Virus record (IMG/VR): IMGVR_UViG_3300037245_004212
Coordinates: 1-21,665 of that record
Length of the DNA stretch: 21,665 nt
Source of the DNA: a virus
Strand: one strand, 5' to 3'
Shown here: positions 60 through 15,167 of the stretch, one piece after another
Position numbering within the stretch: the first letter of the stretch is position 1
Layout of the letters: every line of letters begins with the position of its first letter
The notes under the pieces: generated by a model
Told to the model about the DNA's origin: nothing
The model's database searches: none
Seen by the model: only the letters and a program-made list of their open reading frames with translations
Position numbers and translations under genes: made by a program

Positions 60-133
60 TCAGAGCGAGAGGACTCGAACCTCCGACCCCGTGGTCCCAA
101 ACCACGTGCTCTACCAAGCTGAGCTACGCTCTG
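60..133 (-). tRNA. tRNA-Pro (anticodon TGG)
   Basis: The reverse complement folds as a canonical 74-nt tRNA. It has a 7-bp acceptor stem CAGAGCG/CGCTCTG, a D arm with GCTC/GAGC, a 5-bp anticodon stem CGTGG/CCACG with loop TTTGGGA (anticodon TGG, U33 present), and a T arm with loop TTCGAGT. CCA is not encoded after the discriminator A. It is 1 base from tRNA-Asn and presumably cotranscribed with it. Confidence 0.95.
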
Positions 134-767
134 GCTGTACGGGGAGGACTCGAACCTCCAACCATCGGCTTAACAGGCCGGCGCTCTGCCATTGAGCTAC
201 CGTACACTGAGTCCAAACGCCTCGATTATCGCAGCCGCTTTCATCGAATTGACGCTCCATAACAGCGGCAGCTTTCACTAAGCGCTCTACTGTCCGTATT
301 AGTTCGCTGAGACTTTTGCTTCGTTGAATCAAGTCCGCATCAGTTTTGACGCCATGCATCAATTGTTCAATAGCCACGCGGATAATGGCAATTTCGCCAC
401 GCAACGAAATGTGCGCGAACCGGGACTCAGCAGGCTTTTGTGCGGCCAACTCATCCGCATCCCATGCGTTAGGAGTCACGGGGGACTTATCACCCGGCCG
501 TGTACCGGCTGGCACACGATCCTCACAGTAACAAGGCGCAAACTGCCCGTTGCGATCAAACGATGCAATAGCGGCCACAGCCAAAGTTGCTGCCCTCAAC
601 ATGTTCTTCCGCTGAGCCTCGGGCGAGGCATCCATTTCGACAGCTTGACCCGCGTTGATCATAATGTGTGCAACCGGGTCATCGTTGTCATCAAATTCCA
701 TTCTCCACTTGCCATCCTGGTATTCACATTCGGCGCGAATTTCTTCAAATATTATCTGAAAACTCAT
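111..767 (-). CDS. Hypothetical protein whose 3' end overlaps two tRNA genes
   Basis: This is an open frame of 218 residues. The start is the ATG at 767 because GTAGGAG sits about 11 bases upstream; a longer frame to 821 has no such site. Residues 1-85 are a mixed acidic stretch with an Ala-rich helix. Residues 120-165 are a charged helical region (LRGEIAIIRVAIEQLMHGVK, then RSKSLSELIRTVERLVKAA). No family is recognised. The last 30 or so residues are a translation of tRNA-Asn and the start of tRNA-Pro, and the stop falls inside tRNA-Pro. Either the coding end truly overlaps the tRNAs, or the tRNA pair was inserted near the 3' end and replaced the native terminus. A promoter-like sequence lies at 807-835. 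Confidence 0.6.
   Translation of the reverse strand: MSFQIIFEEIRAECEYQDGKWRMEFDDNDDPVAHIMINAGQAVEMDASPEAQRKNMLRAATLAVAAIASFDRNGQFAPCYCEDRVPAGTRPGDKSPVTPNAWDADELAAQKPAESRFAHISLRGEIAIIRVAIEQLMHGVKTDADLIQRSKSLSELIRTVERLVKAAAVMERQFDESGCDNRGVWTQCTVAQWQSAGLLSRWLEVRVLPVQPERSSAW
135..206 (-). tRNA. tRNA-Asn (anticodon GTT)
   Basis: The reverse complement folds as a 72-nt tRNA. It has a 7-bp acceptor TGTACGG/CCGTACA, D stem GCTC/GAGC, anticodon stem CCGGC/GCCGA (outermost C-A pair mismatched) with loop CTGTTAA (anticodon GTT, U33 present), T stem GGAGG/CCTCC and discriminator G. CCA is not encoded. It lies immediately before tRNA-Pro on the same strand, and the reading frame of the gene at 111-767 runs through it. 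Confidence 0.95.
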
Positions 768-806
768 AGTAAAAAGACTCCTACAAAAAACTCGGGCATT
801 GAGAAT

Positions 807-835
807 CCAATACTCGTTCAATCTGGGTGTGCCAA
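807..835 (-). promoter_or_regulatory. Putative sigma70-like promoter
   Basis: On the minus strand TTGGCA (835-830) is followed after 17 bases by TATTGG (812-807), ahead of the gene at 111-767 and the tRNAs. The ACGAGTATT ending in this -10 region is also present in both copies of the repeated element at 11018-11181. The -35 match is good and the -10 match mediocre, so this is tentative. Confidence 0.3.
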
Positions 836-1800: not shown

Positions 1801-2436
1801 TTAGTCTCCCTTTTGTGAATCCCTTACAGGACATTGCTGACATTGTTCGTGAGTCACTTCCTCGCCATTCAATTCAGAATCCGAGTCCAAACACTTCATA
1901 GTCACTTGAATGCAACCGCAACTTTCTGAACGACGGCCTCTCGGAAATCGCCGCAAGCACTTCGGCCACAGCGGTATAAATCGCCAAGGATTTTCAAGAT
2001 TGCGGTGATAGCCTTTAATGTCACGTGGTGGCTCCCATTCGCCATCCTCTTGCTCGTATACAATACTACCGTCTAATTCCATCGTGAAACGACGATCTTT
2101 TCCAGGTCGATGAGGCGGTAACGACGAGCGGATCGCTTGCAAATCGGGTCGTTCTTCAGTCGAATGCTTAATAACCCAATTCTGAAGACTTTCAGGTGGA
2201 CCAAGCGGGAGTCGTCTGGCAACGAAATTCGGATCAGGTGTTTCGCTAAAGTAGCACGTTTCTAATTGCCCTCCCTCTGTCTCCAAAGTCACTAGAGACC
2301 CTTGCTCCACTGCCACCGAAGGACACGACACACACTCCTCGTGAGTACAGTCGTCTCGCTTCAAGAAGCAATGCAACCTCAGAAGCCCAGGTCGTCGCGT
2401 GTAACGTCGATATTTGCATTCAGGGAGATCAGTCAC
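1801..2436 (-). CDS. Cys-module protein, paralogue of 15157-15504 and 15501-15980
   Basis: A 211-residue protein with 12 Cys. Residues 7-39 hold a short module: C7, then a basic stretch, C23, C30 and the pair C35-x2-C38-P. Residues 114-202 hold a longer module with these steps: DRRFTMELDGSIVYEQEDGE, then WEPPR, GYHRNLENPWRFIPLWPKC, CGCI, a lone Cys, and VTHEQCQQCP. The longer module is shared with both downstream genes of the plus-strand operon. Pairs of Cys at C-G-C and C-x2-C spacing suggest metal binding, probably a zinc-ribbon-like fold; no named family is recognised. The start is a GTG at 2436 overlapping the end of the upstream gene by 8 bases. GGGGAAGAG lies close upstream, so translational coupling is likely. 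Role unknown. Confidence 0.8.
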   Translation of the reverse strand: MTDLPECKYRRYTRRPGLLRLHCFLKRDDCTHEECVSCPSVAVEQGSLVTLETEGGQLETCYFSETPDPNFVARRLPLGPPESLQNWVIKHSTEERPDLQAIRSSLPPHRPGKDRRFTMELDGSIVYEQEDGEWEPPRDIKGYHRNLENPWRFIPLWPKCLRRFPRGRRSESCGCIQVTMKCLDSDSELNGEEVTHEQCQQCPVRDSQKGD

Positions 2437-3646
2437 AACACTCTTCCCCGCCGGGATATGGTTCCGGATAATATACAGCCAATTTAACTTCTCGCTCTAA
2501 GTAGAACACACAACCTGATGCGCACGTCCACTCGCTAGCTTCACAAACTCCACCACCACACGCATAGCCAGGGATACCACTACAATCCGCGATGCTGGAC
2601 ACATAAGGTGAACCAGCCATTGTATATCCGCCGCCCATTACACCAATCCAGTTACCGTGCCACTCTCCACCCGCACAACGATACTGGTGACTTTTTGTGT
2701 AAACAACCCACAAAACACGGCATCGAGCAGGGTCCCTACCCAAGCACTCTGGACCAAGTTCATCACAGGCTGTATTCGTCCACGGTTCACTACCAGGTAG
2801 AGAGGAAAAATAAAGCTGGCAACCTGGCGGAGCAGCGCCATCGGCAAGTGCCATGCTACTAGCGGCCTCTGCTTCTGCTATTGCTTCGGCCGCGTCTGCT
2901 TCCCCCTTTTTGGCATCCCGTTCTGCTTCCTTAGCGTCCAATTCTGCTTGTTTGGTATCGACTTCAGCTTGCTTCGCGTCTACTTCGGCTTGTCTTTGCG
3001 CACAACGATTAGGTGGCGGTTTTGCACATTCTACATCTCGGGCTGCTTCAAGAACAGCAAGTTCCTCTTCAAGTTGCTCCAACTCTTCTTCTAACTCCTC
3101 GACTTCTTCAACGAGGACACAATACTCCCCCCAATAGCCGGTCCAGGCGTATATCGCAACTCCTGCGCGATCACCAGCATCCTCTGCCGCTCTCGCTTGC
3201 TCCTGACTACATGGCGGCCAAGCACCCGCAAGACATTCAGTAATTGTGTACGAGCCAATGTAAAACTCAACTATCCCTTGAGCATTGTCGCAATCGGGGA
3301 GGCATTCTTCTTTACAACATTCGCCTTCATCGCCCCAGCCACCCCATTCCCGATTAAGAGCCTCCTCTATCTCTGTGAGAATTGCATCTTTCCAATAGGT
3401 CAAGTCCTCTGTCCATGCATAAGCACACATCTCATCAATGGCGCTACGAAAATCTTCTACATCAGTCTCAGTCCAAATATGATCTTCTTCAACCTCCCCA
3501 ATTGGATTAAGTGTCTCGCAATTTGTATCCTCCGGCGGATTCGCGCGTTCATCGTTGACTTTACGAATTGCGGCATTCCACGCTTCGTGAAGGTCTTCAG
3601 GTGTGTCGCGTTTGTAGACGTTTCCGCCAGGATTAGGAATCGGCAT
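2429..3646 (-). CDS. Cys-rich coiled-coil protein, possible virion component
   Basis: A 405-residue protein from the ATG at 3646 (a GTG at 3649 is the alternative; TGA-GTG-ATG follows the previous gene directly). Residues 1-100 are acidic and helical. Residues 178-203 form an acidic coiled coil rich in E-E-L. Residues 216-262 carry clear heptads (QAEVDAK QAEVDTK, QAELDAK, EAERDAK) grading into an Ala/Glu stretch. The C-terminal 130 residues are Gly- and aromatic-rich with many Cys. There are 23 Cys overall, concentrated either side of the coiled coil. This coiled-coil-plus-compact-end architecture suits an oligomeric fibre, spike or head/tail decoration protein, but nothing identifies it. No signal peptide or membrane segment is seen, so disulfides in the cytoplasm are doubtful and metal binding is an alternative. 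Confidence 0.8.
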   Translation of the reverse strand: MPIPNPGGNVYKRDTPEDLHEAWNAAIRKVNDERANPPEDTNCETLNPIGEVEEDHIWTETDVEDFRSAIDEMCAYAWTEDLTYWKDAILTEIEEALNREWGGWGDEGECCKEECLPDCDNAQGIVEFYIGSYTITECLAGAWPPCSQEQARAAEDAGDRAGVAIYAWTGYWGEYCVLVEEVEELEEELEQLEEELAVLEAARDVECAKPPPNRCAQRQAEVDAKQAEVDTKQAELDAKEAERDAKKGEADAAEAIAEAEAASSMALADGAAPPGCQLYFSSLPGSEPWTNTACDELGPECLGRDPARCRVLWVVYTKSHQYRCAGGEWHGNWIGVMGGGYTMAGSPYVSSIADCSGIPGYACGGGVCEASEWTCASGCVFYLEREVKLAVYYPEPYPGGEECCD

Positions 3647-3649
3647 CAC

Positions 3650-3835
3650 TCATCTTACGTAGGTGTAAGTTAGGCGTAGCTCGTCATTCATCGCAATCAC
3701 CAATCCACCTGCCATCTCATGCGGCGGAAAGGTAATCACAACTGTGCCGTCTCTGTGTTGGATCATCCCCTCCATGAACTCCATTCTCCGAATCTCTTCC
3801 CCATCTCGCCATTGCTCTACAATCCACTTGTACAT
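3650..3835 (-). CDS. Small hypothetical protein, 61 aa
   Basis: Starts at an ATG with GAGGTG about 4 bases upstream and stops just before the next start at 3649/3646. The sequence looks like two or three beta strands (KWIVEQWRDGEEIRRMEF, DGTVVITFPPHE, LRLTYTYV). No family is recognised. Its spacing suggests translational coupling with the coiled-coil gene. Confidence 0.7.
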   Translation of the reverse strand: MYKWIVEQWRDGEEIRRMEFMEGMIQHRDGTVVITFPPHEMAGGLVIAMNDELRLTYTYVR

Positions 3836-3856
3836 GGCTCACCTCTATCGAGTCGA

Positions 3857-4030
3857 TTAGAGGTGGGGTCTGATTCCCTGTCGTCGGGCTATTGCGACCC
3901 CTTGCGCTCGGGCTCTTGCTTTCGCGCGCTCACGACTCGCTTTGTTACCGGGTATGTAAGAGTAACACTTGCCATCTTTACCGTAGCGGTATCCCGGCTT
4001 ACCTCCCACAGTACAACGTTCGACTGGCAT
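3857..4030 (-). CDS. Small basic phage protein with KPGYRYG-GKCY motif, 57 aa
   Basis: A 57-residue gene with AGGAG 7 bases before its ATG at 4030 and a TAA at 3857. It begins MPVERCTVGGKPGYRYGKDG, continues KCYSYIPGN, then has a highly basic helical tail (KASRERAKARARAQGVAIAR). From memory, small proteins with an N-terminal 'C.VdGKPGYrwG..GKCY.Y.pG' pattern and a basic Lys/Arg/Ala helix recur in phage genomes; their function is not known to me. The basic tail would suit nucleic-acid binding, which is inference. It heads the run of genes down to 1151 after a decayed HNH gene. Confidence 0.8.
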   Translation of the reverse strand: MPVERCTVGGKPGYRYGKDGKCYSYIPGNKASRERAKARARAQGVAIARRQGIRPHL

Positions 4031-4057
4031 CACAAACTCCTCAAACTGAATTCAAAA

Positions 4058-4171
4058 CTACAAATTCCCATGGCCATTGTCAGTAATTTGCCACTTCTAT
4101 CGCATTGGGTAATCGAAATCCTGACTGTCCACTAAGGCTTCCATGCCTTTTGTCAATAGAATTCGTTTCAT
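4058..4171 (-). pseudogene. Remnant of an HNH/AP2-type endonuclease N-terminus
   Basis: From an ATG at 4171, overlapping the stop of the phosphoesterase gene, the frame reads MKRILLTKGMEALVDSQDFD, then YPMR, a TAG stop at 4099-4097, then KWQITDNGHGNL and a second stop at 4060-4058. The pattern 'I-L-T-K-G-x-x-A-L-V-D-x-x-D-F' followed by 'K-W' is the usual start of phage HNH homing-type endonucleases carrying an AP2-like DNA-binding region. The nuclease part is entirely absent and the frame is interrupted, so this is called decayed. It aligns with the plus-strand fragment at 14395-14550. It could still be expressed as a 24-residue peptide. Confidence 0.6.
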
Positions 4172-5481
4172 CAATCTACCCAAATGGGGCCTACATCACG
4201 ACCATTATCAATCAAATAGCGCTTCGGTCCAAGCTTCTCGTTCGGATGACGCAGCTTACAATTGAGCCGCCACGTAATGCCATGCCGGGGATTCACTCCA
4301 TGAAGCCACTGTGCAGGTTCTCGGTATCCTGCCAAAGCATTATAGACAAATGGATCGGTCGCCAACCAAGAGCCGTTGACCATCAATTCACCATCAATGT
4401 CGGAAAGCGTGCTGGCCGTGTGGTGGTGGCCAACACAGAAGTAACGAACTCGTGTAGCTCCGGCGGCTGCGCCAAGCGCCACAAGACCCTTCTGTCGTCG
4501 CACCATCCCGTACCAAGGTATACCCAATTGACTTCGCGCATCATCACCGTGCGAGATGTTGAATCCCACACCATTGATGTCCACATTGGCACTCCAAGCA
4601 TCCGGAATCAGAAACGAGACATTGGGCAATTCGCGGCAATGCAAACGTGCCAACTCGGCGCAAAGGTAATCCCAATTCTCATGGGCCCCCTTATAGTCTT
4701 TCTTCCTCGTGCGGCGACCATGATTGCCCGCAAGGTACAGTACATTCACTCGCTGAAAATAGGCCGCCAAGTCGCGAATCATCAAAGCGTGAAGCTGACC
4801 GATAGCAAGGCAATTGCGGAAAATGTTCCGGTAGTGGGATCGCGGCGCGTGACCATGAATCTCGCCACTAGTAAAGTCGCCGTAAGCCAGAATCCACAGC
4901 GTCGGGAAACAAACCTTCGGGGCCAAGGTATCCTGAGTCCACTCCACTACCGTGTCAACATAACGTTCCGCTCGACAACACGAAACAGGGAAGTTGTAAT
5001 CTTCAAGGTTGCCAACCTCCTCTGGTCGGACAACTTGATCGTGATGCCCATCACTCAGATGCATGACAAGATGTTCAGTGATCTCAGCCTTTCGCGGGTA
5101 CTCAACTACCGAAGGCAGCGCCTCAAACGGGCGGACTCGCCGATCCATCTCCTCCACAATAGCTTGGTGAATGCCGACCTCGCGGGCACCAGCTTTCGAT
5201 CTGCGACGTTCAAGTAGCAATTCATCACGGAGACCAACAACTTCAACCTCCAAATCCTGTACTCGTTGGTCAGTGGGATCATAAGCGGCCTTACGCTGGC
5301 CGCCTTGTGCATTAGCAGGTTGGTGGCCTTCAGGCCAAGGTACGTTTTTATGTATTCGATTGGTCGCGATGTCCGAAATGACCGACCGACCCACCGGATA
5401 ATCCTTCGCTATACTCGGTTGAGTCTCTCCCCGGGCCAGCCGTACTTTGATCTCACCGACTTGCTCTTTTGTAACTTTCAT
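4171..5481 (-). CDS. Metallophosphoesterase with N-terminal helix-turn-helix
   Basis: A 436-residue protein from an ATG with GAGG about 8 bases upstream. Residues 1-50 look like a helix-turn-helix of the kind found in phage HNH proteins (SIAKDYPVGRSVISDIATNR, then WPEG). Residues 70-100 are a charged helix. From residue 137 the calcineurin-like phosphoesterase motifs follow in order: SDGHHD (D144, H146), GDFTSGE (D202), GNH (N253, H254), SHGDD (H311) and GHHH (H352, H354). The set is complete, so two-metal hydrolysis of a phosphoester is expected. Nucleic acid is the likely substrate given the DNA-binding-like N-terminus, which is inference; a nuclease related in mechanism to Mre11/SbcD is the best guess. 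It follows a terminator-like hairpin and probably begins a new transcript. Confidence 0.88.
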   Translation of the reverse strand: MKVTKEQVGEIKVRLARGETQPSIAKDYPVGRSVISDIATNRIHKNVPWPEGHQPANAQGGQRKAAYDPTDQRVQDLEVEVVGLRDELLLERRRSKAGAREVGIHQAIVEEMDRRVRPFEALPSVVEYPRKAEITEHLVMHLSDGHHDQVVRPEEVGNLEDYNFPVSCCRAERYVDTVVEWTQDTLAPKVCFPTLWILAYGDFTSGEIHGHAPRSHYRNIFRNCLAIGQLHALMIRDLAAYFQRVNVLYLAGNHGRRTRKKDYKGAHENWDYLCAELARLHCRELPNVSFLIPDAWSANVDINGVGFNISHGDDARSQLGIPWYGMVRRQKGLVALGAAAGATRVRYFCVGHHHTASTLSDIDGELMVNGSWLATDPFVYNALAGYREPAQWLHGVNPRHGITWRLNCKLRHPNEKLGPKRYLIDNGRDVGPIWVD

Positions 5482-5511
5482 TGTGTGCCTCGTCTGTTAG
5501 AGTGAAAATCA

Positions 5512-5540
5512 GTGAAAGGGCGGCTCGGCCGCCCTCTCAC
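5512..5540 (-). terminator. Probable intrinsic terminator hairpin
   Basis: AGGGCGGC-TCG-GCCGCCCT (5517-5535) is a perfect 8-bp GC-rich stem with a 3-base loop. It extends to 5512-5540 with GTGA/TCAC across one mismatch. Read on the minus strand it is followed by TTTCACTGATTTTC, a moderate T tract, and it sits between the protease stop (5577) and the phosphoesterase start (5481). The tract on the plus side is pyrimidine-rich without a T run, so minus-strand termination is favoured. Confidence 0.6.
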
Positions 5541-5576
5541 TCTCCCTCTCCCGACGTTATTCCCCCTCATCACAGG

Positions 5577-6569
5577 TCAAGGCGCAACGATGTGAAGCAG
5601 CTTCTCGACCTTAAAAAGCGACTTCAGACCATCCTTGGGCAATATCCACTTATCAATGCCACAACTGTCCACCGGCTTCTTGTAGACACCGCCACCCATG
5701 TTCCGAAAACCGGCAGGAATCGAGCCGAGTTCTTCAACAGGGATCGCGTCAATCTCAGCCATCGACGGCATAGGTACCGAAGGATCAAGAGCCCATTCAA
5801 TATCGGAAGCCTTTGCCCACGAATGGATTCGACGCACGGGAACAATGAAATTGAATCCCTGGAGGTCTTTAACACCTTGAGTCAACATGCCGATATAAAC
5901 GCCATCTTCCTTCAAATAGACACCGCCGCCAGAGGACCCAGGAAAAGCGATTGCCGTCACCTGATCGAAAACAGGCTTATTCGCGCCAGACTCTTGCAAA
6001 AGACGCCCTGTCTGACTGAGAACACCTGTCGTATAGCTGTTGGCACCAAACTGACCGAGCAAACTACCGCAGTGACTCAAATCAGCACCAATCGGCGGAA
6101 TGTAGTTGGCATCAGGATGAAACTTCGCACTAGTGCCGAGCGGATAGGCACCTCGCAAACGAATCATCAGAACAGCGAGGTCTTCACCGTAATTCACATC
6201 ACTATACTTAATGACCTTGCAATCCAATGTTTGCTGACCGACTCGACGACCACTCTGATAGCGCTCGGCGACAATCTCGGGGTCTTTGAACTCGACAAGA
6301 ATCTTCGAGCCACCCTTATCGTTGATAACCTTACGAATGGTGCGAAGATTGTCAACAACGTGACCGGCTGTCCACACAAACGTCACGGTCTCGTCGCCGA
6401 TTTTACGGGTGACAAGCGTACCGGAACCTTGTGCATGTCCTGACTTGACAGTGACACTGATCTTCTGCAATTGCTTAGGGACAGACGCCAACGGCGCGTC
6501 AGCAGCGAACGTCGTCACAGTTCCAAGAGCTAGTGCAAGAAGCAGAACCAAAAGAACACGAAACTTCAT
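5577..6569 (-). CDS. Exported trypsin-like serine protease
   Basis: A 330-residue protein. The start is the ATG at 6569, chosen because GGAGGTG lies 4 bases upstream and the resulting N-terminus is a textbook signal peptide: KFR, a Leu/Ala/Val core, then TTFA-ADA as the likely cleavage site near residue 22. The S1 chymotrypsin-like triad is complete: H70 in WTAGH, D130 in GEDLAVL, and S213 in FPGSSGGGVY. The Gly-Ser-Ser-Gly-Gly context matches HtrA/trypsin-2 type proteases. No PDZ domain is evident in the last 80 residues. It would act outside the cytoplasm. A signal-bearing protease is unusual for a phage; roles in lysis, envelope remodelling or defence against other phages are possible but unsupported. 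It lies 25 bases after the SNF2 gene. Confidence 0.92.
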   Translation of the reverse strand: MKFRVLLVLLLALALGTVTTFAADAPLASVPKQLQKISVTVKSGHAQGSGTLVTRKIGDETVTFVWTAGHVVDNLRTIRKVINDKGGSKILVEFKDPEIVAERYQSGRRVGQQTLDCKVIKYSDVNYGEDLAVLMIRLRGAYPLGTSAKFHPDANYIPPIGADLSHCGSLLGQFGANSYTTGVLSQTGRLLQESGANKPVFDQVTAIAFPGSSGGGVYLKEDGVYIGMLTQGVKDLQGFNFIVPVRRIHSWAKASDIEWALDPSVPMPSMAEIDAIPVEELGSIPAGFRNMGGGVYKKPVDSCGIDKWILPKDGLKSLFKVEKLLHIVAP

Positions 6570-6594
6570 AAAACACCTCCAAAACTGAAAAGGG

Positions 6595-8565
6595 TTAAGA
6601 AACGTCAACTGAAAGCAATTCCCCCTCCGTGCCTTTTAAGCCGTCCCAGTCAATGTCAAGTTCACCCATCGACATCAATTCCAGACGACGATTAGCGCGA
6701 ATGACTTCCAACACACGTTCGTCACTCGGCAGGTGAATGAGATCAACAATTTGGACGCCCAAGTTCAAATTAGTGCCGATCCTATGCAACCGATCCTCAG
6801 ACTGCACCCGGTACTCAGGCTTCCAAGAATTGGACCAGTAAATCGCCATGCGGGCTTCTGTCAACGTCAGACTCATGCCGCCACTCTCTGGATGCGCCAC
6901 AAAAGCGACCCGAGGAATAGAAAGATCAGCCCAATAATCAAGTGGCTCAACATCCGTGATGACTTCGCCCTCATGCGTCGTGACATGAAAACCACGCCCA
7001 TCACAGCGGACAACATGCCAAGCTTCTTCTCGACAGAGACGTTCACAACGATCTACTGTGCCAGTGAATCCTCCGAATATAACTACACGCCCGTGCTCTT
7101 CGTTTTCTTCCAACAAAGTTTTGAGAGCTTGGTCCTTTGGACATGGGACCTCGCGGGTATGGCGAACACGACGTGGCATCTGTTGCGAGCCGTTGCACGC
7201 CGAGCAAGTAACCTCCGTCTTTTGAAGCCGGTCCACAATCTCAGGATTCACGAGATCAATGGCCCGGTACGTTCTGTTTAGATTATCCGGATCGACCCAC
7301 TCTGCGACTTTGCCTTCCTTACAATGAGTACAGTGCGTCGTTCCTTCCTGCACTTCACGGTATTGGAAACCATCACTCAACTCACGCAGTAATGTCATAC
7401 CAGTCACCGCATTTGGTGACGATGACGCCAATACTTGAGCAACACGTAGTGTGCTTGGATGCGGCTTGCAATAAATTCGCCGGTATCGTTTATCTGGCAA
7501 ATCAAGACAATCTTTCTTGTGCTTAATAACAACAAGACCCTTCAACCGTCTCGGCAGCAAAGCAACTTCGTTGACACTCGACTTGTACACATGGAAATCA
7601 TCAGGGTCCTCGCACATGTCCCCTTCATGGTTGGGGTGGTCTTCAAACTGACCGCACTCGTGGCACTTGCATTCATTATCACGCCAGCCCTCAACCTTGT
7701 AGACACCCACGCCACTATCAAACTGATGCAACTTCATAAACGAAAGGCGTCGGCGGAATGCCTTATCACTGCCCTCTGCTAAGAAGCCCGGATACGCGAT
7801 CTCTGCTTGCGACCACCAGTCCACTGGGGTCTTCGGAGATGGAGTGCCCGTCATCAGAATCACGTAGCCATCATAACCATATTCCTTCCGAATCAAATCG
7901 GCAAGTTTAGCAGTGGCTTGCGTCCGCTGTGAATTCCAGTTTTTCAGTTTCGACGACTCATCGCCAATAAAACCAAATGGCAACGGGTCACCTGGCCTCC
8001 AGTCATCCATGCGACGAACCAGCCGCTCGTAGGTCATAAACTCGATATTGAATTGGTCAAACGGGAAATCCCATTTACGGAATTCGCGCTGAATGTTCGG
8101 TAAGCTAGTCTTTGGACCAGCCCACCACCATTCTTTGTGTCCGGAGTGTTCAATCACTTCCTGTGCAGATAACGTCTTGCCCAGACCCATCTCTGCGCCC
8201 CAGATTTGGAAATGATACGTGAGTCCCGCATCCGACATATCCACTTGGTGCGCCATCAATGGTCGAATGTAGTCGAAATGCCGTAACTCCTGATCGAAAT
8301 GTGCGTAAATGTCTTCGCCCGCCAAATACCGAATCGTCATCCAATTGCGATGGCAATCTTCAACTGACCACATCCTTCTCGGATTCTCGTCATCAAAGCC
8401 ATGATACTTAGAGCCCCGCATAGCTTTAATTTGATCTTTGAAACAGAAGTCACTTTTAACAAAAAGGATTCGTCCGCCCTTCGCCTCAAAGATAATCGGA
8501 GCCTCACGCTTACGACCAAGGTTATCTTTCTTGAACCACTTAACGGTATGCAATTGAGTCGGCAT
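6595..8565 (-). CDS. SNF2-family DEAD/DEAH-type helicase with Cys-rich inserts
   Basis: A 656-residue superfamily 2 ATPase. ATG 8565 is used (GGGGA 5 bases upstream, one-base overlap with the preceding stop); a TTG at 8568 is the alternative. Motif I is GAEMGLGKT (123-131), motif II GDESS (201-205, a DEAH variant), motif III TGTPSP (239-244), motif V SGGMSLTLTEA (561-571) and motif VI SEDRLHRIG (589-597). The 'QxxDRxHRIG' type ending and the MGLGKT box point to SNF2 proteins, which translocate on duplex DNA. Two Cys clusters, CKCHEC (299-304) with C318, and CTHC...CSAC (412-457), probably bind zinc and are inserted in and between the ATPase lobes. Phage members of this group are assigned to replication or recombination; the exact job here is unknown. 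Confidence 0.92.
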   Translation of the reverse strand: MPTQLHTVKWFKKDNLGRKREAPIIFEAKGGRILFVKSDFCFKDQIKAMRGSKYHGFDDENPRRMWSVEDCHRNWMTIRYLAGEDIYAHFDQELRHFDYIRPLMAHQVDMSDAGLTYHFQIWGAEMGLGKTLSAQEVIEHSGHKEWWWAGPKTSLPNIQREFRKWDFPFDQFNIEFMTYERLVRRMDDWRPGDPLPFGFIGDESSKLKNWNSQRTQATAKLADLIRKEYGYDGYVILMTGTPSPKTPVDWWSQAEIAYPGFLAEGSDKAFRRRLSFMKLHQFDSGVGVYKVEGWRDNECKCHECGQFEDHPNHEGDMCEDPDDFHVYKSSVNEVALLPRRLKGLVVIKHKKDCLDLPDKRYRRIYCKPHPSTLRVAQVLASSSPNAVTGMTLLRELSDGFQYREVQEGTTHCTHCKEGKVAEWVDPDNLNRTYRAIDLVNPEIVDRLQKTEVTCSACNGSQQMPRRVRHTREVPCPKDQALKTLLEENEEHGRVVIFGGFTGTVDRCERLCREEAWHVVRCDGRGFHVTTHEGEVITDVEPLDYWADLSIPRVAFVAHPESGGMSLTLTEARMAIYWSNSWKPEYRVQSEDRLHRIGTNLNLGVQIVDLIHLPSDERVLEVIRANRRLELMSMGELDIDWDGLKGTEGELLSVDVS

Positions 8566-9092
8566 CAACGTCCCCGTTTGTCTTCGAGTAAAAAAGTTAC
8601 TTGATCCGTAGCTTGCCGCTGCCGAAAGTCTGCCCAGAGATTGAGCCCTTCATCTCGAAACAGCCCATAAATCGCATTGTAGGCAATCCGCACAGTTGAT
8701 TCTGTCTCCGGTACTGAGCCGGCCAAAACTGCGGCTTTCCACTGAGCAAGTGTGCCCGTCATCACGGCCATCAATGCGCCCAACTCCACCGTCTCGGCCA
8801 CCACAAATGGTATCCCACCAGAGCATTCCATTATATCCAGTATATCTGCTTCGGCCGCTACAATCAGAACACCATACGTGACGTGAGGCAACAGCTTCGG
8901 ATTCAAATCGACCGCGGCATTCGAGTCTCGCATCGTTGCTAAGCAGCTAAGGAAGCGCTCAGCATCAGTCAATTGTTTCGTCGTGGCGTCGGCGGCCGTC
9001 GCCAAGCTATGACCCAAAACCTTCAACGCAATACCCAAAAATACTGAAAAATCAATGCTCGGTCGGTGTATAATGACAGCTTCAGGTTTCAT
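8565..9092 (-). CDS. Hypothetical protein, 175 aa
   Basis: The open frame extends to 9164, but its first codons there translate the tRNA-like element, so the start is placed at the ATG at 9092 (MKPEAVIIHRPSIDF). No good ribosome binding site precedes it, which is unusual here and leaves the start uncertain. The protein is largely helical and Ala/Val/Leu-rich. It contains AETVELGALMAVMTGTLAQW followed by KAAVLAG near residues 100-127, then a helical C-terminus with AYNAIYGLFRDEGL. I do not recognise the family. It overlaps the SNF2 helicase start by one base (TGATG), so the two are probably translated together, which hints at a DNA-metabolism role. Confidence 0.75.
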   Translation of the reverse strand: MKPEAVIIHRPSIDFSVFLGIALKVLGHSLATAADATTKQLTDAERFLSCLATMRDSNAAVDLNPKLLPHVTYGVLIVAAEADILDIMECSGGIPFVVAETVELGALMAVMTGTLAQWKAAVLAGSVPETESTVRIAYNAIYGLFRDEGLNLWADFRQRQATDQVTFLLEDKRGR

Positions 9093-9130
9093 TTGAAAAG
9101 CCAACAGCGTGTAAACAGAGGAAAAGAAAA

Positions 9131-9220
9131 GAACGTTGCCGGGCCTTGAACCCGGGACCCACATTGCATTTCGCGTCTCACGGCTTTATCAGCCGGGCGG
9201 CGGCGTCCAGCCCAACGTCC
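9131..9220 (-). tRNA. tRNA-like element, abnormal anticodon arm (type II size, undetermined identity)
   Basis: A 90-nt minus-strand element. It has an 8-bp acceptor-like stem GGACGTTG/CAACGTTC (one G-T pair) and a perfect T arm, CCGGG-TTCAAGG-CCCGG, directly joined to the acceptor strand. A D-like hairpin GGGC/GCCC follows the acceptor. The arm where the anticodon should be is CGGC-TGATAAA-GCCG or CGGCT-GATAA-AGCCG. The 7-base version has G instead of the universal U33 and would read ATA; a GAT anticodon would need a mispaired stem. A long segment of about 24 bases precedes the T arm, as in Ser/Leu/Tyr/Sec tRNAs, but no standard identity fits. It may be a degenerate tRNA, an attachment-site relic, or another tRNA-like RNA. 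Confidence 0.5.
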
Positions 9221-9223
9221 TCT

Positions 9224-9265
9224 ACTATTAGATCGTCAAAACAAGACCAACCCCGACAGAAAATC
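9224..9265 (-). promoter_or_regulatory. Possible diverged relative of the 41-bp element, before the tRNA-like gene
   Basis: On the minus strand GATTTTCTGTCGG begins at 9265 and TAATAGT begins 35 bases later at 9230. The duplicated element at 11018-11181 has GATTTTGTCGG and TATTAGT with the same 35-base offset. Sequence between the two boxes is not conserved, so this may be chance. Confidence 0.2.
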
Positions 9266-9279
9266 CGGAAAAATCCGAA

Positions 9280-10029
9280 TTATCTGGCCCGGGCATCTGA
9301 ATCACTCTCCCCTGCCCCGGGCTCTTGCACCACTGCGGCACCCTCTCGCTTCACATCCAGAAACTTCGCGATTTCCTTGACAATTGCCTCAGTCGGTGGC
9401 AATTTGGTGAACGGAGTCGAGCACTTGACAGCAACAGGAACGTGCCACGACCACTGGCCTTTCTCGACCAGCCTCGACTTCATCGTGACCGGCAAAGCGT
9501 TACGAGGCTCTTGACCGGCTTGAGCCGGATTAGCGTCAATCTTCGCCTGCGTAAGCGGCAGATAAGGGAAAATACGCTTGGCTTCCGTCCGAGAGGATTT
9601 CGTGCCGCAGAAAAACTCCAAAAACAGTCCAGTGCTGCGCTCGATGACAAGGAAACTGGGGCCATACATGCACCCACTTTCCTTCTCACCCGACTGAACT
9701 TGGATACGTTTGAACTCGGGATCATTAACATCGTAAACAGCGACAATGTTCTCCGAGTCCTTCAAGTCAATGGCTTTGGGCCGACGAGCGAGCGGCAGAA
9801 GATCAATCTGATCACCCAAGTCGGTCACTTCGTCATCGGTCACCGGAATCCCGTAATTGCCAGGCTGCACAAGCTTCCTGTTGACAGCCTTACCTTTAGT
9901 GAAGAGTTGAAGCCGAGGCAAGAAGTCAGAAGACTTGGCGATGGCGTCAAAATCTGCATCAGTGCCAACCTGCGTCGAAGGCAACTGCTCTACAAAGTCA
10001 ACCGGGACTAAAGCGTTCTCGTTAGACAT
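9280..10029 (-). CDS. Phage hypothetical protein, 249 aa, possible DNA-metabolism accessory
   Basis: A 249-residue protein with AGAGGTG about 5 bases before its ATG. It begins with an acidic leader (MSNENALVPVDFVEQLPSTQ). A compact mixed domain follows to about residue 225, with LPRLQLFTKGKAVNRKLV, then GNYGIPV, FFCGTKSSR and KGQWSWHVPVAV. The C-terminus is acidic and low-complexity (GAGESDSDARAR). The layout of a beta-rich core plus acidic tail, next to a ParB-like and a helicase gene, would suit a single-strand DNA binding or recombination accessory protein, but this is inference; no motif proves it. It is separated from the ParB-like gene by a heptamer repeat. Confidence 0.8.
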   Translation of the reverse strand: MSNENALVPVDFVEQLPSTQVGTDADFDAIAKSSDFLPRLQLFTKGKAVNRKLVQPGNYGIPVTDDEVTDLGDQIDLLPLARRPKAIDLKDSENIVAVYDVNDPEFKRIQVQSGEKESGCMYGPSFLVIERSTGLFLEFFCGTKSSRTEAKRIFPYLPLTQAKIDANPAQAGQEPRNALPVTMKSRLVEKGQWSWHVPVAVKCSTPFTKLPPTEAIVKEIAKFLDVKREGAAVVQEPGAGESDSDARAR

Positions 10030-10051: not shown

Positions 10052-10096
10052 ATCAGGAATCAGGAATCAGGAATCAGGAATCAGGAATCAGGAATC
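10052..10096. repeat. Tandem heptamer repeat ATCAGGA, 6 full copies
   Basis: Six exact head-to-tail copies of ATCAGGA (10052-10093) and a partial seventh. On the minus strand this is TTCCTGA. A 7-base period puts TGA in all three frames, so it acts as a universal translational stop. It supplies the last codons and stop of the ParB-like gene and most of the gap to the next start at 10029. It is likely slippage-generated; a protein-binding role is possible. Confidence 0.9.
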
Positions 10097-11001
10097 AAAA
10101 CAACCTTTTCAGCTTTCACTCGCTGTACAATACGCTTTCTCAGGCGTTGAAAAATACGCGCGCGTTGGCGTTCAACACTTTCAGAATCAAGATGAATAGC
10201 CCATACCAACGCGCAATACCATCCGTCTAGCGCTGTTCCACAATTAGCCGCAACTACAGCCAGTGGTCCAACTCGCCGAACGTCAATCTCGTCGAGATAA
10301 TCAGTAAGCGACCGCAAGAACGGTGTCGGCTCAAGATCAGGTATCAACTCCGCTCTCAACGAACCCTCATTTAGCTCCATCCGCCGCTGTCGTAACACCA
10401 CCATCATCAATGCTTTGAACTCCCGCAATGATAATACTGTCGCTTCAGTGAGATATTCGCCCCATTGCGCCGGAGAAAGTTTAGAAAGATAATAGGCAGC
10501 CTCAAGTGACAACTCTCCACGATCAATGGCAGGGCGGAAGACTTTATATCGAGCCAGCTTCGCCATGCCAAGCATCCTGCGAACCCAGCGAGGATTCTTG
10601 TGAAGAATCTGGCATAGCTCTGCCTGCGTCATCCCTTCTTTACTCTTCAGGAGGCGACGAATCTGCCTTGCAAACTCTGAAGGTTTGGTGGTTGGCCGTA
10701 ACGCCTGGGCTGTGACTTGCATCGCCAAGACATCTTTATCTGTGAGTCCATGCTTCACGATACAGGGAATCTCAACAATGTTGGCCTCTCTGGCAGCAAA
10801 TGTTCGCCACCGACCATCAACAATCTCAAACTTCTCGGGTTGTCGCTTCGAGGGCCGAACACAAATCGAATTCAGGAAACTAGTCTGGGCCAACGAATCC
10901 CGCATCTCAACGTACTCAACACTCCGCTGATTCACCTGCCGAAGCACGAAGGGCGGGTCAATCAAATCAGATGCCGGAATCAGTCGAAGATCGTCAGCCA
11001 T
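10081..11001 (-). CDS. ParB-like DNA-binding protein
   Basis: A 306-residue protein. GGAGG lies 7 bases before the ATG. Residues 7-95 match a ParB/Srx N-terminal domain: a prolyl start (LIPASDLIDPPFVLRQV), a helix, then EIVDGRWRTFAAREANI at 59-75, equivalent to the GERR.RA box where ParB proteins bind CTP and ATP-like nucleotides in related folds. Residues 118-147 form a helix-turn-helix (TQAELCQILHKNPRWVRRML). The remaining 150 residues are helical and unassigned. No ParA gene is next to it, so a partition role is not shown; phage ParB-like proteins also act as regulators or nucleases. It is transcribed divergently from the primase-helicase across the paired 41-bp element, which is its natural candidate target (inference). 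Confidence 0.82.
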   Translation of the reverse strand: MADDLRLIPASDLIDPPFVLRQVNQRSVEYVEMRDSLAQTSFLNSICVRPSKRQPEKFEIVDGRWRTFAAREANIVEIPCIVKHGLTDKDVLAMQVTAQALRPTTKPSEFARQIRRLLKSKEGMTQAELCQILHKNPRWVRRMLGMAKLARYKVFRPAIDRGELSLEAAYYLSKLSPAQWGEYLTEATVLSLREFKALMMVVLRQRRMELNEGSLRAELIPDLEPTPFLRSLTDYLDEIDVRRVGPLAVVAANCGTALDGWYCALVWAIHLDSESVERQRARIFQRLRKRIVQRVKAEKVVLIPDS

Positions 11002-11017
11002 TCATCCGCCTCCATAA

Positions 11018-11181
11018 CTAATACTCGTGTTTCCGGCGCGTTTCCATCCAACAAAATCAAAAAACATGGAAAAACCGGCGCAATCGGACACCCCAAACAA
11101 GGGTAAGTCTCTCCCCGATACGGAATTTTCCGAATTTCCCGATTTTGTCGGATGGAAACGCGCCGGAATCACGAGTATTAG
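11018..11181. repeat. 41-bp inverted repeat in the divergent control region
   Basis: The left arm is 11018-11058 and the right arm 11141-11181. As reverse complements they match at 39 of 41 positions. Each arm has the same orientation relative to the gene it precedes: it runs from GATTTTG through GGATGGAAACGCGCCGGAA to ACGAGTATTAG, then reaches the start of the ParB-like gene (left) or the primase gene (right). Each contains TGGAAA-N17-TATTAG, a weak sigma70-like pair. For the ParB-like gene the implied transcript would begin almost at its ribosome binding site, so an operator or origin role is as likely as a core promoter. The 82-bp spacer holds further AT-rich and CCGGCGC sequence. Confidence 0.85.
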
Positions 11182-11197
11182 TCTATAGAGAGACTGA

Positions 11198-13948
11198 ATG
11201 CACACGGTCTCATTCGCACGCTGGAGTCCACCCATGCCGACAGTGACCGAAGGGTTTCGGCGCTTCCTGACAATCAGGCAGCCCGATCTTCCCGGCGCAG
11301 ACCTGATAGAACGGTACCTTCGCTGGGGCTCCGAGAATCTTGAAACACAAGTCAACGTCGCGGCCGATGGCGGCAATCCTGTGGAAGGCCGGCGCAATAC
11401 CTGGACCGATGGTACCTGTAATTGGTTCCATATCCGGATTCCCAAAAATGCCTTCGATGTGCCCGAGTGGAACGACTACGAGCTACGTTGGGCTCCCGAG
11501 GAGCACGCCGAGGCTATCGGCAGCACCGGCTGGGACTGGACAGCACTCCGGTCGCGCTGGGTAGGCTTCGACTTCGACGAAATCACCGACCACGCCAAGG
11601 GAGTCGGTGTAAACAACGACGAGTTGGAACGAGTCAAAAAAGCTGCCCAAGCCCTCCCCTATGTCGAAGTCCGCAGAAGCACTGGCGGTAAAGGCATCCA
11701 TCTCTACGTCATCTTCAACAGAGAAGGCATCCCAACTGCCAACCACACCGAACATGCCGCCCTAGCCCGCTGTATCCTCGGGATGATGACCGCCGAGGTG
11801 GGATTCGACTTTGCCAGTGCGATCGACGCCTGTGGCCACAACATGTGGATTTGGGCCCGCCGAATCACCAAAGAGAACCAAGGGCTCAAACTGCTGAAGC
11901 CATCTACTAAAATGCTCGGTGTCTCTGAGTTGCCAGCCAATTGGCGAGATCACATCGCCGTCGTAACACGCCGAGCCAACAAAATCAAACTCCAAGGCGT
12001 CACCGACAAGAACCGCGATCCCTTTGAGGAACTCACCTCAGCCCGTCGTCTCATCCCACTTGACAATAAACACAAGTCCCACATTGAGGCTCTGATGGAA
12101 ACAGGCTTCTCGACCATCTGGGTCTCAGATCACCATCTCCTACAGACGCACACTCAGGCACTTACAAAACTGATAGATGATCCGCAGGCTAGGTCCAAAT
12201 TCAACCTTATTGGCCACTTTCAAACCAATAGTCTGGGTAAAGACCCTGGCAACCCCAATTGCTTTCTCTTCCCACTGGACAATGGCGGGTGGCGAGTTTA
12301 CCGATTCTCTCCCGGCGTCACGGAAGCCGAGACCTGGGTACAAGATGGTGCCGGCTGGACCACTTGTTACTTCAATCGTCTCCCTGACGTAGACACAGCG
12401 TGCCGAGCCTACGGAGGTCTGCGCACTGAAGGAAAGCAGCATTACACCTTCCCAAGCGGAGGCGACGCAATCAAAGCGGCTGAGGCTCTTGGTCAAAAAC
12501 TTGACATTCATCCTGAGTTGCGTGAGCGGACAACTGAAATTCGTGTCAACAACGGCTATCTTACTGTCTATCTTGAAAAAGATAAAACAGCCGACAAAGG
12601 GCGTGACATGAAAGGCTGGGTCGAGAAGCGCGGCCATTGGGTACGCGATCTCGATAAACGCATCGTACCAGATGACACCAGCGATATGGGCGAAGCCGAC
12701 TATGACGGTTTCTTACGCTCGATGCGTTCTCCATCTGGTGAAGTCAATGGATGGGAGTACCGAACAGAACAAGGCGATTGGTCTTCAGGGACATCTTCTA
12801 TCGTCAAAATGGTCCTCCAAGGTAAAGGTCAACCTAAGCCTGAAGCCGAAATTATCATGGGTAAATGCGCTGTCAATCCTTGGAAAATCGTCACCCAACC
12901 TTTCAAAGAAGAATACCCAGGGGGCCGACAATGGAATCAAAAAGCTCCACAACTCTGCTACGCACCCGCGCAACTCAGCGATGCTAATGAAGCCCATCAT
13001 CCGCACTGGGATATGATTTTCAATCATGTCGGCATTGAATTGACTCCAGTGCTTCGAGAACATGCTTGGGCAAAACGTCACGGCATCATTACAGGGGCTC
13101 AATATCTGCTACTTTGGATCGCTTCTCTCTTCCAGGAACCATACCGCCGTACACCCTATCTCTTCCTACACGGCAAAGAAAATTGCGGCAAATCCATCTT
13201 CTACGAGTGTATTCAATTGTTAATGACGAAGGGTGTTGTGAATGCCGGGCGCGCACTGATAACAACAAACGACTTCAATGGTGAGTTGATTGGTGCAATC
13301 CTTTGCTACGTTGAAGAAATTGACCTGTCGCACCACAAGGTCGCTTTGCCGCGTATCAAAGATTGGACAATGGCTGAGTTCATCTCGATACGCCAGATGC
13401 GAAGAGACACTTACGATCTAGCAAACACAACACATTGGATTCAAATCGCCAACTTCCAAGAGTATTGTCCAATCGTCGGCGGCGACACACGAATCACGGC
13501 AATCCAAGTGCCAGATTTATCTGACCGACAAGAGATAGCAAAAGAGAAAATGCTGGAGTATCTTCGGGAAGAAGCTCCACACTTTCTCTACACGGTACTC
13601 AACACAACAATACCACCGGCCATTGGTCGTTTGCGTATCCCAGTTATTGAAACTGAAAGCAAACTAGACGCCATCGAATTGAACAAATCAGCACTTGACG
13701 AATTTGTCACTGCATATTGCGTGCAAACCGAAGGACAAAAAGTAAGCTTTGCCCACTTCTGTGATATATTTGTCAAATGGCTTCCAAACGATGCAAAAAA
13801 GGCTTGGCCAATCCACCGCATCTCCCAAAAACTTCAATGGGCCGACCGGTCCAGAGAGAAAACACAACGGTACCTCGACAACATGATTCTACACGACCCA
13901 TCGGAGGCACGTGATGGCAAAAAAGAAAGAGAAGAGCGACCCAGATAA
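11198..13948 (+). CDS. AEP primase fused to SF3 (D5-like) helicase
   Basis: A 916-residue replication protein. The N-terminal part has archaeo-eukaryotic primase motifs: WVGFDFDE (121-128, metal-binding Asp pair), STGGKGIHLYV (161-171, nucleotide-binding S-x-H type motif) and a third motif around DACGHNMWIWARR (210-222). The C-terminal part is a superfamily 3 helicase: Walker A GKENCGKS (659-666), Walker B ILCYVEEIDL (701-710), the sensor-like IQIANFQEY (748-756) and R765 as a possible arginine finger. This is the arrangement of phage and plasmid primase-helicases that prime and open DNA at forks. The start at 11198 has GAGAGA upstream; an internal ATG at 11234 has GGAG at 7 bases and could be the true start. 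It leads the operon. Confidence 0.93.
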   Translation: MHTVSFARWSPPMPTVTEGFRRFLTIRQPDLPGADLIERYLRWGSENLETQVNVAADGGNPVEGRRNTWTDGTCNWFHIRIPKNAFDVPEWNDYELRWAPEEHAEAIGSTGWDWTALRSRWVGFDFDEITDHAKGVGVNNDELERVKKAAQALPYVEVRRSTGGKGIHLYVIFNREGIPTANHTEHAALARCILGMMTAEVGFDFASAIDACGHNMWIWARRITKENQGLKLLKPSTKMLGVSELPANWRDHIAVVTRRANKIKLQGVTDKNRDPFEELTSARRLIPLDNKHKSHIEALMETGFSTIWVSDHHLLQTHTQALTKLIDDPQARSKFNLIGHFQTNSLGKDPGNPNCFLFPLDNGGWRVYRFSPGVTEAETWVQDGAGWTTCYFNRLPDVDTACRAYGGLRTEGKQHYTFPSGGDAIKAAEALGQKLDIHPELRERTTEIRVNNGYLTVYLEKDKTADKGRDMKGWVEKRGHWVRDLDKRIVPDDTSDMGEADYDGFLRSMRSPSGEVNGWEYRTEQGDWSSGTSSIVKMVLQGKGQPKPEAEIIMGKCAVNPWKIVTQPFKEEYPGGRQWNQKAPQLCYAPAQLSDANEAHHPHWDMIFNHVGIELTPVLREHAWAKRHGIITGAQYLLLWIASLFQEPYRRTPYLFLHGKENCGKSIFYECIQLLMTKGVVNAGRALITTNDFNGELIGAILCYVEEIDLSHHKVALPRIKDWTMAEFISIRQMRRDTYDLANTTHWIQIANFQEYCPIVGGDTRITAIQVPDLSDRQEIAKEKMLEYLREEAPHFLYTVLNTTIPPAIGRLRIPVIETESKLDAIELNKSALDEFVTAYCVQTEGQKVSFAHFCDIFVKWLPNDAKKAWPIHRISQKLQWADRSREKTQRYLDNMILHDPSEARDGKKEREERPR

Positions 13949-14408
13949 TTACTACGCCGAGGGCGACATCAACAGTCAAAAGCGAGGCTCAGGAGCCCGG
14001 GCTAATCGTGGAAAAGTATCTTTGTCTTTGGTACCACTGCATCTCTTCGCTGGAGCAGCGAGAGTCTTTATGGGCGGCAAGCTAAAATATGCACCATTCA
14101 ACTGGTGTAAAGGAATAGCATGGAGCACTTGTTTCGATTGTCTGCTTCGCCACCTCTTCAAATGGTTCTATTGCCACGAAGAATTAGACGAGGAGAGTGG
14201 TGAGCACCACTTAGATCATGCCATTGCAAATCTATTGATGTTGCGCCATTATCACATTACATACAAAAATGGTGACGACCGACCGCCTACTTTCACTGGA
14301 TTCGCTGAGGCATTAAAAGACTTCAATACCTGTTTCAATGAAGAAGCATATTTGAAACGAAATCCCGAAATTCAGGCGTTAATTGAAACAAGAGATGAAA
14401 AAGATTAA
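13914..14408 (+). CDS. MazZ/DUF5664-like dNTP pyrophosphohydrolase
   Basis: A 164-residue protein. The ATG at 13914 has GGAGG 6 bases upstream, inside the end of the primase gene; GTG at 13911 is less well placed. The pattern matches what I know of the phage dATP/dGTP diphosphohydrolase N-terminal family (DUF5664, MazG-like fold, including MazZ of cyanophage S-2L): SGARANRGK (26-34), LKYAPFNWCKGI (57-68), LLRHLFKW (77-84), ELDEESGEHHLDHAIANLLM (90-109). The Glu/Asp cluster would bind metal. Enzymes of this group hydrolyse dNTPs, for example dGTP to dGMP, either to clean pools or to feed synthesis of modified bases. Assignment is by motif only; substrate cannot be read from sequence. Confidence 0.75.
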   Translation: MAKKKEKSDPDNYYAEGDINSQKRGSGARANRGKVSLSLVPLHLFAGAARVFMGGKLKYAPFNWCKGIAWSTCFDCLLRHLFKWFYCHEELDEESGEHHLDHAIANLLMLRHYHITYKNGDDRPPTFTGFAEALKDFNTCFNEEAYLKRNPEIQALIETRDEKD

Positions 14409-14550
14409 ATTGACACAAGGCCGATTTGCCTGCGTTGATAATGAAGATTTCAAGTGGTTATCACAGTGGAAATGGCATTATCATCGTCAAAAGAAAACAG
14501 GTTACACTGGCGAGTGTCCTGATTGTGCTGCCCGTTTGGAGGAATTATAA
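14395..14550 (+). CDS. Truncated HNH/AP2-type endonuclease head, 51 aa
   Basis: A short intact frame beginning inside the end of the preceding gene: MKKIKLTQGRFACVDNEDFK, WLSQWKWHYHRQKKTGYTGE, then CPDCAARLEEL and TAA. The first 37 residues have the standard N-terminal pattern of phage HNH endonucleases with AP2-like DNA-binding regions (IKLTxGxxAxVDxxDF...WKW...TGY). The HNH catalytic part is missing and is replaced by a C-x2-C tail. It is either the remains of a homing-type gene cut down by deletion, or a domesticated DNA-binding peptide. Its last bases supply the GGAGG ribosome binding site of the exonuclease gene, which may explain why the frame has been kept. The decayed copy at 4058-4171 is its paralogue. 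Confidence 0.65.
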   Translation: MKKIKLTQGRFACVDNEDFKWLSQWKWHYHRQKKTGYTGECPDCAARLEEL

Positions 14551-15167
14551 TGTCCAAGTTATACTCCGGCATGACACACCTAGCTGGCAATGTGCTGGCG
14601 GCCATTGACTTCGAGACAACAGGACGAAGACCAGGGTTTCACGAGATTGTTCAAATTGCAATCCTCCCTCTGGACCACGATCTCCAGCCACATCCCGACG
14701 TGCCAACCTTCTACATGAACATTCGCCCCGAGCATCCGGAACGCTGCGAACGTAGTGCCTTCGCCATCCACGGCCTCGATGTAGACCTATTGATGCTGCA
14801 CGCTCCGAGTCAGGACCGCGCAATTGACTTGCTATGCGAGTGGTTCAATCGACTCGACTTACCCCAGAATCGGGTCGTGATACCACTGGCTCACAACTGG
14901 CCTTTCGAGTCAGCTTTCTTGAAGGGGTGGCTCGGCGTTGAACTCACGGATCAAATGTTTCACAGTCACGGCCGCGATTCCATGCAACTCGCAATCAACA
15001 TCAATGATCGGGCTTTCTTTACCGGAGAATCCATACCATTCTCTAAAGTGAGTCTCCCCGCCCTGTGCAGGCAGCTAGGAATCGAATACACAAAAGCCCA
15101 TGACGCTCTGGCCGACTGCCAAGCGGCGACCGAACTCTACAAACGGCTCTTGACCTATGGCGACTGA
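14550..15167 (+). CDS. DnaQ-like DEDDh 3'-5' exonuclease
   Basis: A 205-residue protein. The ATG at 14550 overlaps the previous TAA (TAATG) and has GGAGG about 7 bases upstream; an upstream in-frame ATG at 14523 lacks one. Exo I is AAIDFETTG (D20, E22). Exo II is LAHNWPFESAF, where the expected aspartate of 'HNxxFD' is Glu (E120). Exo III is KAHDALADCQAA (H184, D189), typical of the DEDDh group (DNA polymerase III epsilon, RNase T, oligoribonuclease-like). It probably removes nucleotides 3'-5' for proofreading or end trimming in phage replication. No fused polymerase is present. The Asp-to-Glu change may alter metal binding and is worth noting. It overlaps the next gene by 11 bases. Confidence 0.88.
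   Translation: MSKLYSGMTHLAGNVLAAIDFETTGRRPGFHEIVQIAILPLDHDLQPHPDVPTFYMNIRPEHPERCERSAFAIHGLDVDLLMLHAPSQDRAIDLLCEWFNRLDLPQNRVVIPLAHNWPFESAFLKGWLGVELTDQMFHSHGRDSMQLAININDRAFFTGESIPFSKVSLPALCRQLGIEYTKAHDALADCQAATELYKRLLTYGD

Follow-up and report, generated by a model that had tools for sequence, protein, structure and literature searches.

Twin Divergent Promoter-Like Elements in Related Uncultured Phages and Their Probable Recognition by a Phage-Encoded Sigma Factor

Introduction

Why should a phage carry, between two gene blocks that point away from each other, two almost identical copies of one sequence, and which protein reads them? The question is raised by the window studied here, the entire 21,665-bp viral contig of its record, which is probably a phage fragment, and in which the genes for a ParB-like protein and a primase/helicase diverge from the gap that holds the two copies. 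The original prediction had offered three readings, namely a shared promoter, an operator for the ParB-like protein and a replication origin; the first was supported and the other two were not. The arms are probably two divergent promoters with one and the same sequence, recognized by a sigma70-family factor of the phage's own.

The Divergent Locus and Its Two Arms

The features of the locus are collected in Table 1. When searched by BLAST against named phages, the region and the ParB-like protein gave no matches and the primase gave weak helicase-domain matches and nothing else; a plasmid search was likewise without matches, and a 26-mer from the window had no exact match in the viral contigs. 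PF18909, the N-terminal family of the diphosphohydrolase-like protein, is linked to phages with modified bases. A short reading frame of Asp-rich tandem repeats (DDDLDDDL...) was also noted on the (-) strand at about 850-1110.

Table 1. Features at and around the divergent gap, numbered along the 21,665-bp window.
Feature	Position	Strand	Remarks
ParB-like protein (ParB_N, then helix-turn-helix), heading the leftward block	10081..11001	(-)	Pfam PF02195, E 4e-6; phrog_1033, E 4e-16
Remainder of the leftward block in the window	1801..10029	(-)	Unknown genes, three named enzymes, others
Helicase, leftward block	6595-8568	(-)	
Trypsin-like protease, leftward block	5577-6608	(-)	
Exonuclease, leftward block	4171-5481	(-)	
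Left arm, promoter-like element toward the ParB-like gene block	11017..11058	(-)	40/42 identical to right arm; bipartite in relatives
Left arm hexamers	11046-11041 and 11023-11018	(-)	-35-like TGGAAA, 17-nt spacer, -10-like TATTAG
Inter-element spacer, into which the 57-nt arms extend	11059..11140	(.)	48% GC
Right arm, promoter-like element toward the primase gene block	11141..11182	(+)	40/42 identical to left arm; bipartite in relatives
Right arm hexamers	11153-11158 and 11176-11181	(+)	-35-like TGGAAA, 17-nt spacer, -10-like TATTAG
Primase/helicase (DUF5906), from the conserved start	11234..13948	(+)	Further in-frame ATG upstream at 11198
Rightward block after the primase	13911..15167	(+)	
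dATP/dGTP diphosphohydrolase-like, rightward block	13911-14408	(+)	N-terminal family PF18909, E 5e-23
3'-5' exonuclease, rightward block	14523-15167	(+)	

The inverted arms described in the original prediction are real, with 39 of 41 positions identical between 11018-11058 (-) and 11141-11181 (+), and their similarity was found to reach 57 nt at 86% (11017-11073 and 11126-11182). Within the 400-bp region, inverted repeats scored 36 at best, against 14 or less in 40 dinucleotide shuffles, and no other copy occurs in the 21,665-bp record, in line with what had been noted by eye. The description of a duplicated control element, with both copies oriented alike to their genes, was also supported. 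The predicted distance of 17 bases to both gene starts agrees with the ParB-like gene (about 16 nt from the ATG at 11001) and not with the primase, the leader of which is about 52 nt long because the start common to all relatives (MPTVTEG) lies at 11234 and not at the in-frame ATG at 11198. The spacer is not AT-rich as had been claimed, since the GC content of the stretch separating the 41/42-bp cores is 48%, and that of the central 52 nt 58%, compared with 50% for the window. A scan of 10900-11400 for the sigma70 consensus (TTGACA-16/18-TATAAT-like) found none, this being a host-type consensus that may not follow the rules of the actual host.

Relatives and the Two-Box Constraint

In protein scans of viral contigs, the same ParB-like gene was recovered from about 60, mostly together with a divergent primase; in addition, four MAG contigs, of which three are planctomycete, have the gene. 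Where the divergent ParB/primase gap could be read, nearly all relatives had the elements as an inverted pair. The elements are alike within one phage and unlike between phages (e.g., TTTGGCAGTCATGTGTAGG, GGTCATTGGTTAGGGTGTC and AATTGGACATATAATGTAGG). The original prediction had counted on conservation of the arms in close relatives, which held for the arrangement and not for the sequence, the latter diverging in step with the sigma factor described below.

When 41 distinct loci were aligned on the outer end of the element, the agreement between the two arms of one phage was 85-93% over most of a 7-bp box (~cTGAAAA), 34-56% in the next 8-9 bp, where unrelated phages agree at about 30%, and 95-100% over most of the last 18 bp. 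Many positions of this 18-bp box agree at only 30-60% between phages. The geometry in the relatives, TGAAAA followed by 17 nt and then a hexamer within the 18-bp box, is that of a sigma promoter, and the 41 loci thus present two constrained boxes with -35/-10 geometry and an unconstrained spacer. The same layout, TGGAAA-17-TATTAG, can be read in both arms of the window, which are identical in the spacer too, so that the bipartite constraint is visible in the relatives only.

Side by side with the element pair, a 12-bp palindrome, GCGTTTATACGC (variants GCGTGTAAACGC, GCGTTTACACGC and GCGTATAAACGC), was noted at about 35 of 67 loci in the leader of the primase gene (for instance, in L042, L032 and L055), the clade of the window not being among them. 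It is confined to the primase side, in the stretch from the promoter to the gene start, and its sequence, in contrast to that of the promoter, is conserved from phage to phage; possibly, it is an operator.

A Third Copy Upstream of Gene X

A total of 22 relative contigs were scanned, each with its own 20-bp core, and the element pair was recovered in all 22. A single third copy, matching at 18-20 of the 20 bases, was found in seven of them, all large, other matches being limited to 13-16 bases. These seven are exactly the scanned contigs that carry the gene X family, and the copy is located 15-100 nt upstream of gene X and directed into it. The original prediction had proposed that copies ahead of other operons would favor a promoter, and their presence in 7 of the 22 relatives does support the reading as a shared promoter. 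Each copy faces the first gene of a block, there being two at ParB/primase and a third at gene X in these relatives and two in the window. The third copy at gene X was also detected in a distant MAG phage (L176/L179), and no matching element was found upstream of gene X in L178, also from a MAG. The 103-kb contig G010 (L087-L092) has two copies of gene X, at positions 3479 and ~77711, the element that goes with the second being of another type (GGGACTCTTCTATATGG), close to the one in contig L078. In two relatives a serine recombinase adjoins gene X, which suggests that some of these phages may be temperate. In the window, the reading frame at 111-821 (-) is weakly related to gene X (E 8e-4 along 54 residues) and has neither the zinc-finger-like start of gene X nor an upstream element.

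The same data bear on whether the arms could be a replication origin, or a cruciform or hairpin beside the primase, and kept alike by gene conversion or by a need for pairing. The inverted arms do adjoin the primase-helicase gene, but the mismatches between arms fall between the boxes, a stretch that conversion or pairing would not spare, and gene conversion or a hairpin was rejected on this ground; the diverged middle zone indicates that the likeness of the arms comes from two recognized boxes. Moreover, the third copy is single, non-inverted and placed at the start of another operon, and no reversal of the GC skew was seen there, either in the window or in eight relatives. An origin, as one of the predicted functions, is thus extremely improbable.

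A Phage-Encoded Sigma Factor

A divergent sigma70-family protein of about 180-280 residues, with region 2 followed by region 4, is encoded in nearly every long contig examined, including both close relatives of the window (G001 and G002). Weak Pfam matches to sigma-70 region 2, mostly below the curated cut-offs, were obtained in nine relatives. The profile of the family matched sigma factors in the PDB (sigmaF, E 1.4e-15), and the profile alignment sets the phage motif TIRLPPRS on TIRIPVH of SigA, which is the start of region 3. The AlphaFold model of the protein had a pLDDT of 80, and all 50 of its listed PDB fold matches were sigma factors or sigma-containing transcription complexes. In two independent collection scans, the ParB-like gene was present in 31 of the 39 viral contigs with the sigma gene. 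The sigma gene was mapped in G001, G002 and G014, where it shares the strand of ParB and is found 16-24 kb further downstream, within a block whose genes mostly run one way, suggesting that the left promoter may drive sigma itself. No sigma gene was found within the 21.7-kb window, which is explained by the fact that the window ends about 11 kb to the left of ParB, whereas the sigma gene of the closest relatives is 23-24 kb away. The phage from which the window derives would be expected to have its own sigma gene beyond the left end of the contig.

Co-Variation of the Downstream Box with Sigma

Among ten phages of one clade, the distance between downstream boxes tracked that between sigma residues 86-140, a segment whose limits were chosen after the alignment was viewed (partial rank correlation 0.69, p = 0.0003), and tracked neither the sigma N-terminus or region 4 nor ParB. 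A sliding window without preset limits gave a peak at sigma residues 111-140 (rho = 0.61) and low values at both ends of the protein. With 14 phages, the downstream box tracked sigma region 2.4-3.0, with a family-wise p of 0.00025, to be read in the light of the overstated certainty of Mantel-type tests on related sequences, and tracked neither the ParB-like protein nor other parts of sigma. The closest correspondence for the segment at the start of region 3 was with bases -12 to -8 (rho = 0.72; 14 phages). The nearest neighbor by sigma 2.4-3.0 had 9.7 of 12 bases in common, versus 7.7 expected and 8.0 for the nearest neighbor by ParB. Of the phages added later, L032, L047 and L070 fit the co-variation and L078 does not; in a second clade of seven phages, no co-variation was found. 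Correlating column by column over the whole of sigma and ParB did not discriminate, since deep clades dominate such a comparison, whereas a single clade analyzed with sliding windows did. As for the -35 box, partial tests against sigma region 4 gave p values of 0.024 and 0.001, with no such signal in the raw correlation, and a link between the two is only suggestive.

Two mosaic sigma factors follow the same pattern. In L024 the N-terminus is 79% like that of L053, while segment 2.4-3.0 is closer to L042 (64% vs. 42%), and the box is L042-like (16/18 vs. 13/18). Similarly, L036 has an N-terminus 80% like that of L026 and an L053-like segment 2.4-3.0 (69% vs. 33%), and its box is L053-like (17/18 vs. 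11/18). The statistical association across the 14 phages suggests that recognition specificity may be set by the sigma factor.

The ParB-like protein is always encoded next to the element and has a helix-turn-helix, and the element could in principle be its operator or a parS-like site. Nevertheless, the type of the element does not follow that of the helix-turn-helix: the ParB-like proteins of L042 and L077 are 95% identical and have the same helix-turn-helix, yet their elements differ at 4 of 19 bases, while L032 and L077 have identical elements with only 68% identity in the helix-turn-helix. The correlation in sliding windows along ParB was 0.25 at most. This part of the original prediction is highly unlikely to be correct, although weak non-specific binding by the protein would be compatible with these comparisons.

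Lambdoid immunity operators and L5-type stoperators, located at divergent early operons, are identical within a phage and diverged between relatives. The diversity of types found here, with strict identity within each phage, resembles such operators, and the elements might therefore be sites for a phage repressor or activator acting over ordinary promoters, the association with sigma being indirect and due to co-inheritance of sigma and the regulator. The serine recombinase beside gene X in two relatives, with its hint that some of the phages may be temperate, and the occurrence of related genes in bacterial MAG contigs would fit this. However, no such repressor or other regulator was found. 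The protein that co-varies is a sigma factor, in which the match is confined to the DNA-reading segment, and two boxes with an unconstrained spacer are promoter-like. An immunity-type operator is accordingly considered rather unlikely, although less so than a ParB site.

In T7, T3 and SP6, a change of promoter type goes hand in hand with a change in the segment of the phage transcription protein that reads it. The TATAGG-like ends and the type-specific bases of the elements recall promoters of this class, which would call for a phage-encoded single-subunit RNA polymerase. No match to PF00940 (RNA_pol) was obtained in 23 records, a search in which the control genome gave none either. However, there are only 2-3 sites per genome, and a sigma factor is present and co-varies. 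The reader here would be a sigma factor for a cellular-type polymerase and not a single-subunit enzyme, and T7-like promoters are the least probable of the readings considered.

Proposed Mechanism

If the arms are a promoter pair read by the phage sigma factor, early host-driven transcription would make some sigma, and host RNA polymerase carrying it would start at both identical divergent promoters and fire them together, thereby coupling the two replication gene blocks. The left promoter would serve the leftward block (ParB-like protein, nuclease, helicase and protease), and transcription far downstream would probably reach the sigma gene, giving positive feedback. The right promoter would serve the rightward block with the primase and the nucleotide and DNA enzymes, and in the larger relatives a third block, with gene X at its head, would be started by the sigma holoenzyme as well. 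The downstream box would be read by the sigma segment comprising region 2.4 and the start of region 3. On this model, a single protein has to recognize both arms, which keeps them alike, and the joint change of sigma and its promoters makes them differ from phage to phage. It is conceivable, albeit speculative, that segment 2.4-3.0 is swapped by recombination and that all the promoter copies follow, making a rapidly radiating lock and key with many mutually incompatible types that would insulate co-infecting relatives, an analogue of heteroimmunity at the level of transcription.

Comparison with Known Phage Sigma Factors

The sigma factor gp36 of phiEco32 has its own middle and late promoters, six of which were mapped, with the single element tAATGTAtA (PMC8948821, PMC4331800). 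For phage 7-11, the sigma factor SaPh711_gp47 recognizes late promoters GTAAtg-(16)-aCTA at 8 sites upstream of gene blocks (PMC8948821), and the two sigma factors, distant homologues with 15% protein identity, differ in specificity (PMC8948821, PMC4331800). The present system resembles that of 7-11 in mode and layout, as a phage sigma would redirect the host polymerase to a bipartite promoter at few sites; it differs in having 2-3 sites, two of them divergent and identical, and in its sequences. With phiEco32 it shares a phage sigma with its own promoters, but the promoter there is a single element, whereas here it has two boxes and its type changes among phages with ParB-like proteins 70-95% identical. 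The kind is thus already known from phiEco32 and 7-11, and what is new is the twin divergent arrangement and the hypervariable, recombining and co-diversifying specificity among close relatives.

Significance

Private promoters served by a phage sigma factor have been described in a few phages, which share little sigma identity. Here, dozens of related phages have matched sigma and promoter types, including natural mosaic sigma factors that changed their DNA-reading segment in concert with the promoter. They constitute a natural experiment in changing promoter recognition, in which the sigma residues that set specificity become directly testable. The same holds for the way in which a regulon with only two or three promoters can change type and still work, and for a possible isolation of relatives from one another by their transcription. 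Elements that match within a genome and not between relatives also offer a route to hidden promoters in uncultured phages.
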